Below are positions 531-7,371 of a stretch of DNA of 7,371 nt, piece after piece. The notes under the pieces were generated by a model. It searched no databases, was not told the origin of the DNA, and saw only the letters and a program-made list of their open reading frames with translations. The stretch is from positions 1-7,371 of the forward strand of contig NZ_SPQM01000190.1 of the NCBI RefSeq assembly GCF_004570345.1. The letters are read 5' to 3'. A program made the translations under genes and the position numbers. This stretch comes from Blastococcus sp. CT_GayMR20 (GTDB taxonomy: Bacteria; Actinomycetota; Actinomycetes; Mycobacteriales; Geodermatophilaceae). How positions within the stretch are numbered: the stretch's first letter is position 1; each line of letters opens with the position of its first letter.

Positions 531-3500
531 GTGAGCGACCCCGCCTTCGCCCTGCTGTCCACCAGCGACACCGACCTGCTCTCCGCGCGGGCCTCGGGCG
601 CCGGTTGGCGGCTGGGCAATCCCGCCCGGCTCGACGGATCCGGCCTCGCCGCCGTGGTCGAGGGCAGCGCGGTCGTCGTCGTCCGCATCCTGGGGGTCCG
701 GCGGCAGTACGAGGAGCTGCTGGCTCCGCTGCTGGCCGGGCCCGCGCCCGTCGTCGTGCTCGGCGGGGAGCAGGTGCCCGACGCCGAGCTCATGGAACTT
801 TCCACCGTGCCGATGGGCGTCGCGACAGAGGCGCACGGCTACCTCGCGCAGGGCGGGCCCGACAACCTCACCCAGCTGCACCGCTTCCTCTCCGACACCG
901 TGCTGCTGACCGGTGAGGGGTTCGAGCCGCCGCGCGTCGCGCCCGACTGGGGCGTGCTCTCCCGGGAGCCACGCCGCACGGACGGTCCGACCGTCGCCGT
1001 CCTCTACTACCGGGCGCACCACCTGGCCGGGAACACCGCGTTCGTGGAATCGGTGTGCGGGGCGGTCGAGGACGCCGGCGGCCAGGCGCTCCCGGTCTTC
1101 ACCGCGTCGCTGCGGTCGGTCGACCCAGGACTGCTGGAGACGCTGCGGAGCGCGGACGCCATGGTCGTCACGGTGCTCGCGGCCGGTGGCGCGCGGCCGG
1201 CCACCGCGCAGGCAGGTGGGGACGACGGTGCCTGGGACGTCGGCGAGCTCGCTGCTCTCGACGTGCCGGTGATCCAGGGTCTGTGCCTGACGCGGTCGCG
1301 CGAGGAGTGGGCCGCCGACGACGACGGGCTCTCACCTCTCGACGTCGGTAACCAGGTGGCGATCCCGGAGTTCGACGGCCGGCTGATCAGCGTGCCGTTC
1401 TCCTTCAAGGAGACCGACGCCGACGGGCTGACGCACTACGTCGCCGATCCCGAGCGGGCAGCCCGGGTGGCCGGCACCGCGGTGTCCCACGCCCGCTTGC
1501 GGCACACCCCGCCCGGCGAGCGCCGGATCGTCGTGATGCTGTCGGCCTACCCGACCAAGCACGCACGCATCGGCAACGCGGTCGGCCTGGACACACCCGC
1601 GTCCGTCGTCCGCCTGCTCGCCGCGATGGCCGGGCAGGGCTACGACATCGGGCCCCTCGACGCTCCCGACGCCCTCCCGGGCGTGGCCGACCTCGACGGC
1701 GACGCCCTGGTGCACGCCCTCATCGCGGCCGGCGGTCAGGACGCCGACTGGCTCACCGAGGAGCAGCTCTCGGGCAACCAGGTCCGGATCCCCGCGGCGG
1801 AGTACCGAACTTTCTTCGCGACCCTGCCCGCCGACCTCCGCGAGGCGATGGAGCAGCACTGGGGCCCGGCCCCCGGGACGCTCTTCGTGGACGGGGAGGA
1901 CATCGTCTTCGCCGCGTTGCGGGCGGGCAACGTCGTGGTGATGGTGCAGCCGCCGCGTGGCTTCGGGGAGAACCCGATCGCCATCTACCACGACCCGGAC
2001 CTGCCGCCGTCCCACCACTATCTGGCGGCGTACTGGTGGCTGCGTTCGGTCTTCGGGGCGCACGCCCTGGTGCACGTGGGCAAGCACGGCAACCTCGAGT
2101 GGCTGCCCGGAAAGACCGTGGGGCTGTCCGCCTCGTGCGGGCCGGATGCCGCACTCGGCGACCTGCCACTGGTCTACCCGTTCCTGGTCAACGACCCCGG
2201 TGAGGGGTCGCAGGCCAAGCGCCGGGCGCACGCGACGCTGGTCGACCACCTGGTGCCGCCGATGGCGCGAGCCGACTCCTACGGCGACATCGCGCGGCTG
2301 GAGCAGCTGCTCGACGAGCACGCCAACATCGCGGCGATGGACCCCGGCAAGCTGCCCGCCGTCCGGGCGCAGATCTGGACCCTGCTCCAGGCGGCCAAGC
2401 TCGACTCCGACCTGGGGCTGAACGAGCGGCCGGCGGACGACCACTTCGACGAGATGATCCTGCACGTCGACGGGTGGCTCTGCGAGATCAAGGACTCGCA
2501 GATCCGCGACGGTCTCCACGTGCTCGGGACACCGCCGGCCGGGCAGAGCCGCGTCGACCTGGTGCTCGCCATGCTCCGTGCCCGGCAGATCTGGGGCGGT
2601 TCCGTCGCGCTGCCGGGCCTGCGCGAGGCCCTCGGCCTCACCGAGGACGGCACCGCCGGACTGCAGGCGACCGACGCCGTCGAGGCGCAGGCGGAAGCGC
2701 TGGTCAGCGGCATGGAGGCACGCGGCTGGACCGGTGACGCCGTGGCCGACGTCGTGCGCGAGGTGCTCGGGAAGGAGGACGACGCCGTGGCCGCCGTCCT
2801 CCGATTCGCCGTCGACGAGGTCGTGCCCCGGCTGGAGCGCACCACCGACGAGCTGGACGCAACCCTGCACGCCCTCGAGGGCGGCTACGTGCCCGCGGGA
2901 CCCTCGGGATCGCCGCTGCGCGGGCTGATCAACGTGCTGCCGACGGGCCGGAACTTCTACTCCGTCGATCCGCGCGCGGTGCCCTCGCGGCTGGCCTGGG
3001 AGACGGGGCAGTCGATGGCGGAGTCCCTCGTCGACCGCTACCGGGCCGACACGGGGGAGTACCCGCGCTCGGTGGGGCTGTCGGTCTGGGGCACGTCGGC
3101 CATGCGCACCTCGGGCGACGACATCGCCGAGGTGCTCGCCCTTCTGGGGGTCCGCCCGGTGTGGGACGAGGCGTCGCGGCGGATCACCGGCCTGGAACCC
3201 ATCCCGCTCGACGAGCTGGGCCGGCCGCGGATCGACGTCACCGTGCGGATCAGCGGCTTCTTCCGGGACGCGTTCCCGCACGTGGTGACCATGCTGGACG
3301 ACGCCGTGACGCTCGCGGCCTCCCTCGACGAGGCCGACGACGCGAACTTCGTGAAGGCCCACGTCGACGCCGACCTGGCCACGCACGGCGACCGGCGGCG
3401 GGCGACCACCCGGGTCTTCGGCTCCAAGCCCGGCGCCTACGGGGCGGGACTGCTGTCGCTGATCGACTCCCGGAACTGGCGCGGGGACGCCGACCTGGCC

Positions 3501-4151
3501 GAGGTCTACGCGGTGTGGGGCGGCTACGCGTACGGCCGCGACCTGGACGGCGTGCAGGCCCGGCCGGACATGGAGGCCGCCTACAAGCGGATCGCCGTGG
3601 CGGCCAAGAACGTCGACACCCGCGAGCACGACATCGCCGACTCCGACGACTACTTCCAGTACCACGGCGGCATGGTCGCGACGGTCCGCGCGCTGACCGG
3701 GACCGCACCGGCCGCCTACATCGGCGACTCCACCCGGCCGGAGTCGGTCCGCACGCGCTCGCTGACCGAGGAGACCGCACGCGTGTTCCGCGCGCGGGTG
3801 GTCAACCCGAAGTGGCTGGCGGCCATGCGCCGGCACGGCTACAAGGGGGCGTTCGAGCTGGCTGCCACCGTCGACTACCTGTTCGGCTACGACGCCACGA
3901 CCGGCGTGGTGCCCGACTGGATGTACGAGAAGCTCGCGCAGACCTACGTGCTCGACCCGGAGAACCGCGAGTTCATGGAGACGTCGAACCCGTGGGCGCT
4001 GCACGGGATCGCCGAGCGGCTGCTGGAAGCGGTCGACCGGAAGATGTGGGCCGAGCCCGACCCGGCGCTGCTCGCCGAGCTGCAGCAGGCCTATCTCGAC
4101 ACCGAAGGGGACCTGGAGGGCGGCGAGTCGCCCGCCCGCATCGGCTCGTGA
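531..4151 (+). CDS. cobN: Cobaltochelatase large subunit CobN
   Basis: CobN is the large, porphyrinoid-binding subunit of ATP-dependent aerobic cobaltochelatase. With CobS/CobT, or ChlI/ChlD-type AAA+ partners in many actinobacteria, it inserts Co2+ into hydrogenobyrinic acid a,c-diamide in the cytoplasm. The 1206-residue product matches the usual actinobacterial length, so it looks complete. Landmarks: an N-terminal domain with repeated V-V-V/V-V-L-G-G-E motifs to about 110; V155-A-V-L-Y-Y-R-A-H-H164; the family hallmark H515-V-G-K-H-G-N-L-E-W-L-P-G-K528; a V852-W-G-T-S-A-M-R859 block; Y993-A-V-W-G-G-Y-A-Y-G-R1003; and a C-terminus ending M-W-A-E-P-D-P then T-E-G-D-L-E, typical of CobN. The start is GTG with GAGGA 7 bases upstream, behind a cobalamin riboswitch. 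No partner subunit is in the window. Magnesium chelatase BchH/ChlH is the main paralogue, but the divergent cobG and the B12 riboswitch settle the assignment. Confidence 0.97.
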   Translation: MSDPAFALLSTSDTDLLSARASGAGWRLGNPARLDGSGLAAVVEGSAVVVVRILGVRRQYEELLAPLLAGPAPVVVLGGEQVPDAELMELSTVPMGVATEAHGYLAQGGPDNLTQLHRFLSDTVLLTGEGFEPPRVAPDWGVLSREPRRTDGPTVAVLYYRAHHLAGNTAFVESVCGAVEDAGGQALPVFTASLRSVDPGLLETLRSADAMVVTVLAAGGARPATAQAGGDDGAWDVGELAALDVPVIQGLCLTRSREEWAADDDGLSPLDVGNQVAIPEFDGRLISVPFSFKETDADGLTHYVADPERAARVAGTAVSHARLRHTPPGERRIVVMLSAYPTKHARIGNAVGLDTPASVVRLLAAMAGQGYDIGPLDAPDALPGVADLDGDALVHALIAAGGQDADWLTEEQLSGNQVRIPAAEYRTFFATLPADLREAMEQHWGPAPGTLFVDGEDIVFAALRAGNVVVMVQPPRGFGENPIAIYHDPDLPPSHHYLAAYWWLRSVFGAHALVHVGKHGNLEWLPGKTVGLSASCGPDAALGDLPLVYPFLVNDPGEGSQAKRRAHATLVDHLVPPMARADSYGDIARLEQLLDEHANIAAMDPGKLPAVRAQIWTLLQAAKLDSDLGLNERPADDHFDEMILHVDGWLCEIKDSQIRDGLHVLGTPPAGQSRVDLVLAMLRARQIWGGSVALPGLREALGLTEDGTAGLQATDAVEAQAEALVSGMEARGWTGDAVADVVREVLGKEDDAVAAVLRFAVDEVVPRLERTTDELDATLHALEGGYVPAGPSGSPLRGLINVLPTGRNFYSVDPRAVPSRLAWETGQSMAESLVDRYRADTGEYPRSVGLSVWGTSAMRTSGDDIAEVLALLGVRPVWDEASRRITGLEPIPLDELGRPRIDVTVRISGFFRDAFPHVVTMLDDAVTLAASLDEADDANFVKAHVDADLATHGDRRRATTRVFGSKPGAYGAGLLSLIDSRNWRGDADLAEVYAVWGGYAYGRDLDGVQARPDMEAAYKRIAVAAKNVDTREHDIADSDDYFQYHGGMVATVRALTGTAPAAYIGDSTRPESVRTRSLTEETARVFRARVVNPKWLAAMRRHGYKGAFELAATVDYLFGYDATTGVVPDWMYEKLAQTYVLDPENREFMETSNPWALHGIAERLLEAVDRKMWAEPDPALLAELQQAYLDTEGDLEGGESPARIGS

Positions 4152-4193: not shown

Positions 4194-4270
4194 TGGGGTG
4201 AGTGACGGGGCTCGAACCCGCGACACCCAGGATCACAACCTGGTGCTCTACCAACTGAGCTACACCCACC
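4194..4270 (-). tRNA. tRNA-His (anticodon GTG)
   Basis: On the minus strand all four arms fold. Acceptor GTGGGTG pairs with CACTCAC (one G-U). The D-stem is GCTC/GAGC with loop AGTTGGTA. The anticodon stem CCAGG/CCTGG closes loop TTGTGAT, with GTG at plus-strand bases 4236-4234. The T-stem GCGGG/CCCGT carries loop TTCGAGC. The base before position 1 is G (4270) and position 73 is C (4197). This is the extra G-1:C73 pair that identifies histidine tRNA to HisRS. CCA is encoded (4196-4194). The total is 77 bases with G-1 and CCA, matching the usual bacterial tRNA-His length. Confidence 0.97.
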
Positions 4271-4353: not shown

Positions 4354-4375
4354 CGGCACGGCTCACGCCGTGCCG
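4354..4375 (-). terminator. Hairpin with GUGA tetraloop over the orn stop codon
   Basis: A perfect 9-bp inverted repeat, CGGCACGGC and GCCGTGCCG, closes a 4-base loop. In the orn mRNA this loop reads GUGA, a GNRA-class tetraloop, and its UGA (4365-4363) is the stop codon of orn. No U-tract follows. It may terminate transcription or protect the mRNA 3' end, and it separates orn from tRNA-His. Confidence 0.6.
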
Positions 4376-5031
4376 GCGGCATCCTCCGCGGGGTTCGCGT
4401 CGCCCGACGCGAGCAGCTCGGCGAACGAGCCGACGACCTCGTCGGCGGCGTTCTTCGCCTGCTCGCTGTTCGGCCCCGGCGCCGGCACGAACAGGGTGCG
4501 GCGGTAGTAGGCCAGCTCGCGCACCGACTCGATGATGTCGGCGAGCGCCCGGTGGGCCAGGCCCTTCGGCGGCTGGGCGAAGTAGACGCGCGGGAACCAG
4601 CGGCGGGCCAGCTCCTTCACCGAGGAGACGTCGACCATGCGGTAGTGCAGGTGGTCGTCGAGCTCGGGCATGTCCCGGGCGAGGAAGCCGCGGTCGGTGC
4701 CGATGGAGTTGCCGCAGAGCGGTGCGGTGCGGCGCTCGGGCACCCAGCGCTTGATGTAGGCCAGCAGCTGCTGCTCGGCCTCGGCGACGCTCAGGGTCGA
4801 GGCGCGGACGGCGTCGGTGAGCCCCGACTTCCGGTGCATCTCGACGACGACCTCGTTCATCCCGTCCAGGTCGGCGTCGTCCGCCGAGATGATCAGGTCC
4901 AGGCCCGGGTCGAGGACGTTGAGCTCGGAGTCGGTCACGAGCACCGCGACCTCGATCAGCTTGTCCTTGACGATGTCCAGGCCGGTCATCTCGCAGTCGA
5001 TCCAGACCAGGTGCCCTGCGCTCTCTGCCAC
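4363..5031 (-). CDS. orn: Oligoribonuclease Orn
   Basis: Orn is a cytoplasmic 3'-5' exoribonuclease that finishes RNA decay by degrading 2-5-nt fragments, including pGpG from c-di-GMP turnover. The 222-residue protein shows the DEDDh exonuclease set: D12 and E14 in [10 protein letters not shown]; a central N59-E-V-V-V-E-M-H; D113 in [11 protein letters not shown]; and H160 with D165 in H-R-A-L-A-D-I. The core is family-length to about residue 185. A short Ala/Glu-rich tail follows, as in other actinobacterial Orn. The start is GTG at 5031-5029, placed at the point where the family homology begins. There is no convincing Shine-Dalgarno, but a -10-like TACTGT ends 8 bases before the start codon, suggesting a leaderless mRNA. 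The next gene downstream on the same strand is tRNA-His. The gene is divergent from the membrane protein at 5177. Confidence 0.96.
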
Positions 5032-5176: not shown

Positions 5177-6367
5177 GTGCCCTCTCCTGCTGCACCCGCC
5201 CCCGCTCTTCCGGCGGTCCCGTCGGCACCGGGTTCCCTGCTCGCCGGGGTCGCCCACCCCATCGCCCTGATCCGCTGGTTCTGGGCCGCCTACCTGACCC
5301 CGGGACGCCCCGGCCGGGCGACGACGCAGACCGAGCTGCGGTGGATCTACACCGCCTGGCTGGGCGCCTTCCTCCTCAAGATGCTGGGGTCGACCTGGGA
5401 CGTCTCCTGGCACTTCCGGTGGCTGCGCGACGACCTGGCCCCGCCGCACCTGCTCAACTCCGCCGGCACCGCGGTCGTCATCGGCCTCGTCGTCTTCCAC
5501 AGCTACACCGGCTACGGCGTCGACCGCCGCGCCCTGCGCCTCATGCAGTGGGGCATCGGCATGTTCCTCATCGCCGTCCCGATCGACATCCTCAACCACC
5601 GCATCAACGGGCTGGACATCACCAGCTGGAGCCCCAGCCACGCCCTGCTGTACCTGGGGACGGCGGTCATGCTGGCCGGCGCCATCCGCGGGTGGTGGCT
5701 CTACGCCGCGCCCGGCAGCATCCGGGACCTGGTCTCACTCGGCCTGTGGCTGTTCTTCGTCGAGAACGCGCTCTTCCCGAACCAGCACCAGGAGTACGGC
5801 GTCCTGTCGCTGGAGGCCTACGACGCGGGGCGGACGACGGCCGAGCCCCAGCTGCTGGACTTCGCGGCGTCGCAGGGCCAGTCGCCGGAGATGTTCATGC
5901 TGCCGGTGCCGTCCTGGGTGCACCCGGCGTGGCTGATCTGCGCCGGGCTGCTGTCGCTGGTGATCGCCCGGAAGGTCGTCGGTCTGCGCTGGACCGCCAC
6001 GGCCATCGCCGGCACCTACCTGCTGTACCGGGCGGTCATGTGGCTGGTCCTGGTCGGCATGGGCTTCCCGCCGTCCGTGCTGCCGCTGGTCCTCCTCGTG
6101 GGTGCCGTGCTCGTCGACCTGGCCGTCACCCACCGGGTGCCCGGCTGGCTCGCGGGGCCGCTCGTGACCGGCGTCGTCTACGGCGTCGCGGTCGGCCAGG
6201 AGGCACTGGGGCTGCTCCCGCCGTGGAACTGGTGGTCGGTGCTGCCGGTCGCCGTCGGCTTCAGCGTCCTGTGGGCCGGCGTGGACCTGTCCGCCCGCAG
6301 CGGCTGGCTGGCCCGCTGGGCGGCCGCCGACGGGCCGTCCGTTTCACGGGAGCCCGCGCACGTCTGA
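5177..6367 (+). CDS. Polytopic membrane protein with paired D-x3-H...P-x-H motifs (PmoC/AmoC-like signature)
   Basis: I do not recognise a named family. The 396-residue protein has an Ala/Pro-rich N-terminus (to about 22) and some 8-10 hydrophobic segments, roughly at 57-72, 90-110, 118-139, 153-176, 181-200, 247-266, 270-294, 297-315, 321-345 and 350-370. Two charged motifs sit at membrane edges: W74-D75-V-S-W-H79, R84-D85, P89-P-H91; and D137-I-L-N-H141, S152-P-S-H155. Each is followed by L-x-x-x-G-T-A-V. D-x3-H-x(11-13)-H resembles the metal sites of PmoC/AmoC (CuC and CuD in the methane enzyme). A third polar stretch is E196-N-A-L-F-P-N-Q-H204-Q-E206, then W247-V-H249-P. The start is GTG with GAGGAAG at 5165-5171; longer in-frame extensions overlap orn and are not credible. 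No pmoA or pmoB is in the window. Metal binding is inferred and the function is unknown. Confidence 0.85.
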   Translation: MPSPAAPAPALPAVPSAPGSLLAGVAHPIALIRWFWAAYLTPGRPGRATTQTELRWIYTAWLGAFLLKMLGSTWDVSWHFRWLRDDLAPPHLLNSAGTAVVIGLVVFHSYTGYGVDRRALRLMQWGIGMFLIAVPIDILNHRINGLDITSWSPSHALLYLGTAVMLAGAIRGWWLYAAPGSIRDLVSLGLWLFFVENALFPNQHQEYGVLSLEAYDAGRTTAEPQLLDFAASQGQSPEMFMLPVPSWVHPAWLICAGLLSLVIARKVVGLRWTATAIAGTYLLYRAVMWLVLVGMGFPPSVLPLVLLVGAVLVDLAVTHRVPGWLAGPLVTGVVYGVAVGQEALGLLPPWNWWSVLPVAVGFSVLWAGVDLSARSGWLARWAAADGPSVSREPAHV

Positions 6368-6532: not shown

Positions 6533-7371
6533 GTGCTGGCCCTGACCCCGGTGCCGCTGCAGACGGCAGGGGAGCGCGCGCTCTTCGGGGAGCTCACCCG
6601 GTGGGACACCGGCGCCTCGGTGCGGGCGGCCGTCGTCGCCTCCATCCCGCAGATCGACGGCGTCCTGGGACGCCGGGTCTCCGACGCCGTCCTGTTCGTC
6701 CCGGAGGGAATCGCGGTCATCCGGATCGTGGAGGTGCTCCGGCAGAACGGGGCCGTGACGGCGGTGCCGGACGGGGCCTGGACGATCACGCCCGAGTCGG
6801 GCTCCAGCCAGGTGCTGCAGCTCTCCGGCGGCGGCTCCTCGCCGCTGGACGGGCTGATGCGCGCGGGCATGGACGCCGCGATGAAGCTGCGCCGCGCCGG
6901 CCTCGAGCCCGGCCGGATCGCGCGGCTCACCGTGCTGGTGGGCGACATCACCGGGCTCAGCCCCTCCGACGGCGATCTCGGCGAGGGCGACCAGGTCGCC
7001 CTCCTGGAGCCGCGGTCGCTGCTGCTCGGGTTCGCCCGCTCCAGCCGGTACGCCAGCGTCGACAATCCCCGCCTGTGGACGACGGCCGACGTCCGGGCCG
7101 CCCTGGAGGGCCTCGGTCTCGAGGGGCGCGGACCGACGGTCGAGGAGCTGAACGGCGAGGGCTTCCCCTACTCGCCGTACGTGCTGCGCCGGCCGGAGCT
7201 GCTGACCCCGGCGGCGATGGCGGCCTCGCCGTCCCCCGGTGCCACTGCTCCTTCGTCCGCCCCGCCGCCGACGCCCACGCCGGCTGCGGAGCACGGTCCG
7301 GTCCGCGAGCAGCCGAGCCCGGCCGCGATCGCGCAGGCGGTGGCCGCCTCCGCCGCGGCCGCGCACGCGGC
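6533..7371 (+). CDS. Unrecognised soluble protein with Pro/Ala-rich tail, 5' part (runs off right edge); possible degenerate NERD-like domain
   Basis: No confident family. The visible 279 residues start at GTG 6533, fixed by GGAGG at 6519-6523, 9 bases upstream. A globular alpha/beta region covers about 1-224. A low-complexity Pro/Ala/Ser stretch starts at about 225 and is still open at the edge, suggesting a linker to a further domain. The first 70 residues loosely follow the NERD nuclease-related pattern: G13-E14-R-A-L-F-G-E-L21, then D51-A-V-L-F-V-P-E-G59-I-A-V-I63. Where NERD proteins have the E/D-x-K catalytic pair, this one reads R64-I-V-E-V, so the site looks lost. Later segments are L132-T-V-L-V-G137 and S162-L-L-L-G-F167 (strand-like) and T183-x2-D-V-R-A-A-L191 (helical). 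No signal peptide or membrane segment is seen. It shares a promoter-like signature with the preceding membrane-protein gene, hinting at common regulation. The NERD relation is a guess. Confidence 0.75.
   Translation, partial: MLALTPVPLQTAGERALFGELTRWDTGASVRAAVVASIPQIDGVLGRRVSDAVLFVPEGIAVIRIVEVLRQNGAVTAVPDGAWTITPESGSSQVLQLSGGGSSPLDGLMRAGMDAAMKLRRAGLEPGRIARLTVLVGDITGLSPSDGDLGEGDQVALLEPRSLLLGFARSSRYASVDNPRLWTTADVRAALEGLGLEGRGPTVEELNGEGFPYSPYVLRRPELLTPAAMAASPSPGATAPSSAPPPTPTPAAEHGPVREQPSPAAIAQAVAASAAAAHA

Follow-up and report, generated by a model that had tools for sequence, protein, structure and literature searches.

The stretch of DNA analysed here, termed the window, comprises positions 1–7,371 of contig NZ_SPQM01000190.1 of Blastococcus sp. 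CT_GayMR20. Its forward strand carries a gene for a membrane protein of 396 residues (coding part 5177–6364, stop codon 6365–6367, by translation), which an original prediction from the sequence alone had read as a stand-alone protein with the two copper-site signatures of PmoC, the C subunit of particulate methane monooxygenase (pMMO). The product is of Blastococcus type, its nearest named proteins among the matches listed coming from Blastococcus. The enzymes with which it is compared, the copper membrane monooxygenases (CuMMOs), initiate the oxidation of methane and ammonia. The features considered are the following.

5177..6367, plus strand: gene for the 396-residue membrane protein, with PmoC-like and PmoA-like halves; GTG start, TGA stop included
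5327..5704, plus strand: PmoC-like half, residues 51–176, four transmembrane helices and both metal motifs
5399..5449, plus strand: CuC-type motif D75-x3-H79-x11-H91 with R84, D85 and P90
5585..5641, plus strand: CuD-type motif D137-x3-H141-x13-H155, with Asp at the position of PmoC Asn227
5717..6298, plus strand: predicted PmoA-like half, residues ~181–374, placed by helix correspondence with residues 161–341 of the relative P0159
5774..5800, plus strand: third conserved stretch, FPNQHQEYG, residues 200–208 in the fifth helix (181–216), invariant in A1
4363..5031, minus strand: oligoribonuclease-type exonuclease gene (RNase_T; PF00929, E 1.3e-30), divergent neighbour, context only

Residues placed by script (W74, D75, W78, H79, R84, D85, P90 and H91 in the first motif; D137, N140, H141, G145, D147, W151, S152 and H155 in the second) assign the candidate ligands to codons 5399–5401 (D75), 5411–5413 (H79), 5447–5449 (H91), 5585–5587 (D137), 5597–5599 (H141) and 5639–5641 (H155). 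Both motifs, D-x3-H-x11-H and D-x3-H-x13-H, therefore lie where the original prediction had put them, with the 62 residues it had counted between their Asp residues. The PmoC ligands with which it had compared them are also those given in PMC12576850, namely Asp156, His160 and His173 for CuC and Asn227, His231 and His245 for CuD; PMC11194816 likewise gives the CuD ligands. In pMMO, copper sits at either CuC or CuD, about 6 Å apart, with CuD regarded as the active site (PMC12576850, PMC11194816). Our PmoC reference sequence was that of chain 7ev9_C, identical over 260 residues.

Conservation was assessed in 552 members, of which 361 are proteins returned by searches and 191 are open reading frames (ORFs) at the loci, and many of which are near-duplicates; where denominators fall below 552, the remaining rows have a gap at that position. 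The first-motif ligands are kept in 542/542 (Asp), 542/542 (His) and 541/542 (second His, the exception being P0138), and those of the second motif in 546/546, 546/546 and 547/547, down to about 20% identity with the window protein, although this conservation is not fully independent, since members were found by overall similarity with the motifs included. Free variation at the D and H positions, which would have refuted the original prediction, is thus not seen. Invariant positions in a 66-sequence alignment are W74, D75, H79, R84, P90, H91, P135, D137, H141, G145, W151 and H155. The D-x3-H spacing holds without exception in both motifs (542/542 and 546/546), and the second His pair is separated by x13 in 544 of 546; spacing of the first His pair is variable (x11 in 266 of 542, x14 in 139, x12, the PmoC spacing, in 119, x13 in 17 and x16 in one). 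The CuC ligand residues of subunit C, D-x3-H...H, are thus present in the family. For CuD, the agreement claimed earlier extends to both His residues and their x13 spacing but not to the Asn, which is Asp in 546/546, so that the set N-x3-H-x13-H is absent. The stretch FPNQHQEYG shows no variation in the 14 members of A1, the subfamily of the window protein, and remote members often have E-[FLY]-D there.

To relate the family to known subunits, hidden Markov models were built from family alignments free of CuMMO sequences and run against 7,871 ORFs from 275 loci, including 87 PmoC (mostly similar viral copies) and four PmoA sequences. PmoC was the top non-family match of profiles A5 (E 1.8e-5) and A2 (E 2.9e-5), and PmoA also ranked ahead of unrelated ORFs, with E 6.7e-4 versus 3.2e-3 for A5, whose non-family ranks 1–28 were all PmoC or PmoA and whose first unrelated ORF stood at rank 29, and 9.6e-3 versus 0.057 for A2, where the first unrelated ORF stood at rank 44. 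PmoC matched the N-terminal half (profile positions 7–108) and PmoA the C-terminal half (152–328). Among two reversed and 12 block-shuffled control profiles, PmoC reached 0.017 at best, in one of the 12 shuffles, with the rest at 4.7 or worse, and PmoA never did better than 2.5; a CopD profile used as a further control gave E 140 for PmoC and 520 for PmoA. Support from other alignments was fainter: A1 had PmoC within its first 12 rows (best E 0.026) and A6 had it as the first two non-family matches (0.037 and 0.048, unrelated ORFs from 0.055), with no PmoA in the first 12 rows of either. Profile A3, built from 24 gappy rows, was set aside, a permease-like ORF (judged by eye to be of amino-acid type) leading at 3.7e-5 ahead of PmoC at 0.0025; because a chance match led there, we rely on A5 and A2 together with their controls and not on single E-values. 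The ordered double-motif pattern, composed after the family had been seen, occurs in 247 of the 7,871 ORFs, all of them family members or PmoC.

Searches were also run in the opposite direction. With a PmoC profile, the first 21 non-PmoC rows were all family members (best E 0.0072), four of them second copies of the same gene, and the search did not reach the window's own protein; with a PmoA profile, family members came first after PmoA itself, but at E 0.41. Profile–profile comparison by hhalign gave A5 against PmoC a score of 34.0 (P 5.4e-4), whereas 150 column permutations reached 19.2 at most and 150 block shuffles 32.2, and A2 and A3 gave P 6.7e-4 to 7.9e-4, with hhalign probabilities of just 25–31% for the three. 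These alignments bring the D, H, R and H of the first motif and the [ND]-x3-H of the second into register, the last His following with A2 and A3 but not with A5. The alignment of A1 with PmoC was confined to the first motif (P 1.3e-3), and the C-terminal half of the family against PmoA alone was not significant. As side observations on PmoC relatives themselves, IMG/VR yielded 117 viral-contig stretches carrying them, 17 of the 80 listed (L116–L195) being at least 80% identical to M. capsulatus PmoC, and a plasmid of Nitrosomonas sp. sh817, typed as conjugative, has a lone amoC with no annotated amoA or amoB within 3.7 kb (L197).

Predicted structures extend this picture to the second half. 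The AlphaFold model of the window protein (mean predicted local distance difference test, pLDDT, 92.5; predicted template modelling score, pTM, 0.90) places the six candidate ligands at helix ends on one side of the membrane (helices 51–81, 89–111, 117–144 and 153–176), so that, in the model, they do not lie on opposite faces. PmoC ranked third for this model over the copper-site region, the part of PmoC before residue 111 (9cl1 numbering) remaining unmatched; PmoA was not in the 50 rows listed, and Foldseek, at E<=0.001, matched it to no PDB or viral structure. For P0159, a relative from A2 with 24% identity to the window protein (model pLDDT 93.6), the eight best Foldseek rows were PmoA or AmoA chains (probability 1.00, E 0.009–0.085), as were the 14 best VIA rows, with 11–17% identity in the aligned chains. 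A PmoA-type fold is accordingly predicted for P0159, and the window protein would share it through homology with that relative.

At the family level, homology to PmoC and PmoA is thus shown by computation, and the fusion of a C part with an A part is well supported, to a degree that we regard as high confidence. The view that the protein is distantly PmoC-like and keeps candidate ligands for copper stands, as does the remark that the chain is longer than PmoC; it does not stand alone as a PmoC, however, since its extra part is the predicted PmoA-like half. On balance, we read the protein itself as a probable single-chain, two-part relative of the CuMMOs (pMMO, ammonia monooxygenase, AMO, and butane monooxygenase). 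That it is an unrelated helical membrane protein with two D-x3-H...H motifs arisen by chance or convergence seems very improbable: different halves match both subunits of one enzyme in operon order by sequence, PmoA also by structure, and shuffled or reversed profiles do not give these matches.

The family is large. The window protein as query found 1140 homologues at E<=1e-3 (120 listed), a remote short relative found 122 (120 listed) and eight long relatives found 1476 (120 listed), with Rubrobacter, Solirubrobacterales, Mycobacterium, Frankiales and one Chloroflexales record among the source names. A genome scan gave 126 loci, of which the best 80 were kept: L001–L073 are Geodermatophilaceae by title or look-alike records, and L074–L080 are other actinobacteria. 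One of these records, L002 (SPQJ01000045.1, 'UNVERIFIED_ORG: Bacillus sp. AZ43'), holds a Blastococcus-type copy with 87% identity, and its label looks wrong. The A1 profile, built from the 14 members, matched 44 of 396 Actinomycetota genomes at E<=1e-3, almost all of the matches being remote relatives with open frames of 181–1063 residues, many with two separate matching stretches; the genome of Geodermatophilus nigrescens has a window-type copy plus a long relative (L085). The window protein has no family match in Pfam or NCBIfam, and neither it nor the 14 A1 members, L093, L095, P0159, P0226 or P0230 matches PF04896 or PF02461, tests in which the subunits of L196, as positive control, scored E 5.8e-58 and 5.4e-70. 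P0079 alone among 360 listed homologues has a precomputed match, to PF20176 (DUF6541). PDB sequence searches with the protein, the A1 profile and a long relative gave no match at E<=10, and the IMG/VR scan gave none to the window protein or to a PmoA segment. An AmoC (PF04896) search, with no match in 11 actinobacterial genomes and none in 14 control genomes, was uninformative. Searches for fused or PmoC-like proteins in an open-access library, which covers few subscription papers and no bioRxiv preprints, listed no report of this family, and 'fusion' and 'fused' are absent from the main text of PMC9038741 and PMC6215863. The lack of any Pfam or NCBIfam hit among the scanned members may explain why the family is unnamed.

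Genomic context connects many relatives with copper. To the neighbour counts for CopD (PF05425), the order of Microtetraspora contributed 29 of its 45 matching genomes and that of Crossiella 30 of its 33; stretches L202–L260 have flanks of only some 1.5 kb, and L202 repeats the genome of L075. A convergent copD is adjacent in 27/29 Microtetraspora-order, 9/30 Crossiella-order and 5/7 L074–L080 loci, followed by copC in 19, none and two of these, respectively; neither gene is near any of the 73 Geodermatophilaceae-type loci L001–L073, whose flanks reach 8 kb at most and are shorter at contig ends. On a Mycolicibacterium vanbaalenii JOB5 plasmid (L274), CopC is encoded directly upstream of a long relative (PF04234, E 2.7e-23). 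As annotated, positions 3386–14882 of this plasmid stretch form a copper-type island of CopC, the long relative ('hypothetical protein') and a cytochrome c oxidase assembly protein, with heme-copper oxidase subunit III, TlpA family, DUF305 and CbtA genes. The window and the family stretches examined contain no ORF matching PmoA, PmoB or PmoC at E<1e-3, in line with the earlier statement that no PmoA or PmoB gene stands beside this one, and a three-gene operon is absent there.

This context gives some weight to a copper-handling protein of CuMMO ancestry, which would move or store membrane copper with CopC and CopD (import) or supply cytochrome oxidase. The adjacency to copD and copC, the company of the M. 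vanbaalenii relative (CopC, oxidase assembly, subunit III, DUF305 and CbtA genes), the lack of a PmoB gene, the Asp at the CuD position and the fact that no hydrocarbon-pathway genes were recognised beside the members looked at (by non-systematic annotation) all favour it. A carrier, however, has no obvious need of the His pairs of both sites, the first Asp and a PmoA-like half, all of which are kept, and copC and copD also occur in extended true pmo and amo operons (PMC6189053); we consider this explanation rather unlikely. The lack of copD and copC near L001–L073 would instead suit a CuMMO-fold metalloprotein using zinc or iron, for which Asp-His-His is a good ligand set too. The CuC site of the first pMMO crystals indeed contained zinc (PMC12576850). 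Copper genes nevertheless adjoin many relatives outside L001–L073, as well as one long relative, and we judge a zinc or iron protein improbable.

Long members add a further layer. Downstream of the long relative, genes for a small lipoprotein and a membrane protein of about 428 residues are found in five of eight stretches (L263, L268, L270 and L272, with a weaker match in L261). The lipoproteins resemble cupredoxins weakly (best E for PF13473 1.9e-4, under the cut-off), and one matches the end of NosZ at E 8.9e-6, far below that model's cut-off; an HVH was read in those of L268, L270 and L272. The three ~428-residue proteins scanned have no above-cut-off Pfam match, and the long PmoC–PmoA-like proteins of this operon-like set (L263, L268, L270, L272 and L261) measure about 614–651 residues. 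In eight of 137 listed proteins over 430 residues (P0224, P0226, P0228, P0229, P0231, P0236, P0237 and P0241), the C-terminal domain begins with HDPGQG after a signal-peptidase-like A-x-A or similar, where cleavage could leave a mature N-terminal His; PmoB has AHGE at that place. Comparison of this C-terminal domain with the N-terminal domain of PmoB by hhalign was weak (P 0.017 and 0.14), and a PmoB-like domain in long members is a weak lead only.

For the preferred reading, a single-chain CuMMO relative, the following arrangement can be proposed. Residues ~40–180 would form the PmoC helices with the CuC (D75, H79, H91) and CuD (D137, H141, H155) ligand positions, and residues ~181–374 the PmoA part, in the C–A order of the pmoCAB operon and with no PmoB. 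Copper, presumably supplied by CopC/CopD or a cupredoxin-like partner, would be bound within the membrane, near its periplasmic side, as a mononuclear centre; as in pMMO, two adjacent sites would probably share a single ion between them, and this copper might activate O2 on a small substrate. Judging from a remark in PMC11194816 on the carboxylate ligand of CuC, the Asp that stands for Asn in the CuD set would be expected to favour copper more oxidised than in pMMO, and the chemistry may therefore differ from methane hydroxylation.

An oxygenase function is, in our estimation, an evenly balanced hypothesis. More tentatively, and with slightly less confidence, the family may be a single-chain branch of the CuMMO superfamily, widespread in Actinomycetota, which would act on a trace gas or another small molecule as a copper oxygenase not yet described and would form an outgroup; on this reading, members of ~500–670 residues have an added C-terminal domain, in one subgroup after A-x-A followed by HDPGQG, reminiscent of the His at the mature N terminus of PmoB, and the hosts are Actinomycetota not known as methane or ammonia oxidisers. 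If true, this outgroup would show how the three-subunit enzymes arose. A one-chain relative would serve the study of pMMO and AMO evolution in the same way, would offer a far smaller system for testing the disputed CuC/CuD chemistry by mutation, and would place a candidate oxygenase in common soil actinobacteria, where, by literature search, none appears ever to have been sought.

The remaining genes of the window are side observations. A CobN cobaltochelatase gene (PF02514) occupies 531–4151 (+), a tRNA-His gene (4194–4269, −; ARAGORN) lies between it and the exonuclease gene, and the window edge (~2–400, −) holds, by eye, the start of a CobG-type reductase. The downstream gene at 6533–7371 (+) resembles by eye a 616-residue Klenkia gene at the same place (L056, 2418–4265) and has no above-cut-off Pfam match.

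Among known systems, the CopC–CopD genes neighbour the family in Microtetraspora-order loci and in 9/30 Crossiella-order loci, but the CopD profile misses the family (best E 26). PmoA/AmoA (PF02461) differ from the second half through the low identity of the P0159 alignments (11–17%) and an hhalign comparison that, taken alone, lacks significance. By published description, three genes encode a CuMMO, in most cases as an xmoCAB operon (PMC6215863). The actinobacterial butane monooxygenase operons of the Mycolicibacterium chubuense NBB4 type share the phylum and, by profile matches, the superfamily; they are true three-gene C–A–B operons detected by Pfam, whereas the family has one gene. From PmoC/AmoC/HmoC (PF04896) the family differs in falling below Pfam detection, in leaving the N-terminal PmoC part unmatched and in being fused to a PmoA-like half with no separate PmoA or PmoB, and the window protein differs in its first His pair (x11 versus x12) and in Asp for Asn227. 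Yet these subunits are the top non-family match of A5 and A2, and they share with the family D-x3-H-x4-R-[DE]...P-x-H and [ND]-x3-H-x13-H in the same order, the W-H and P-x-H flanks and the placement of the motifs at helix ends.
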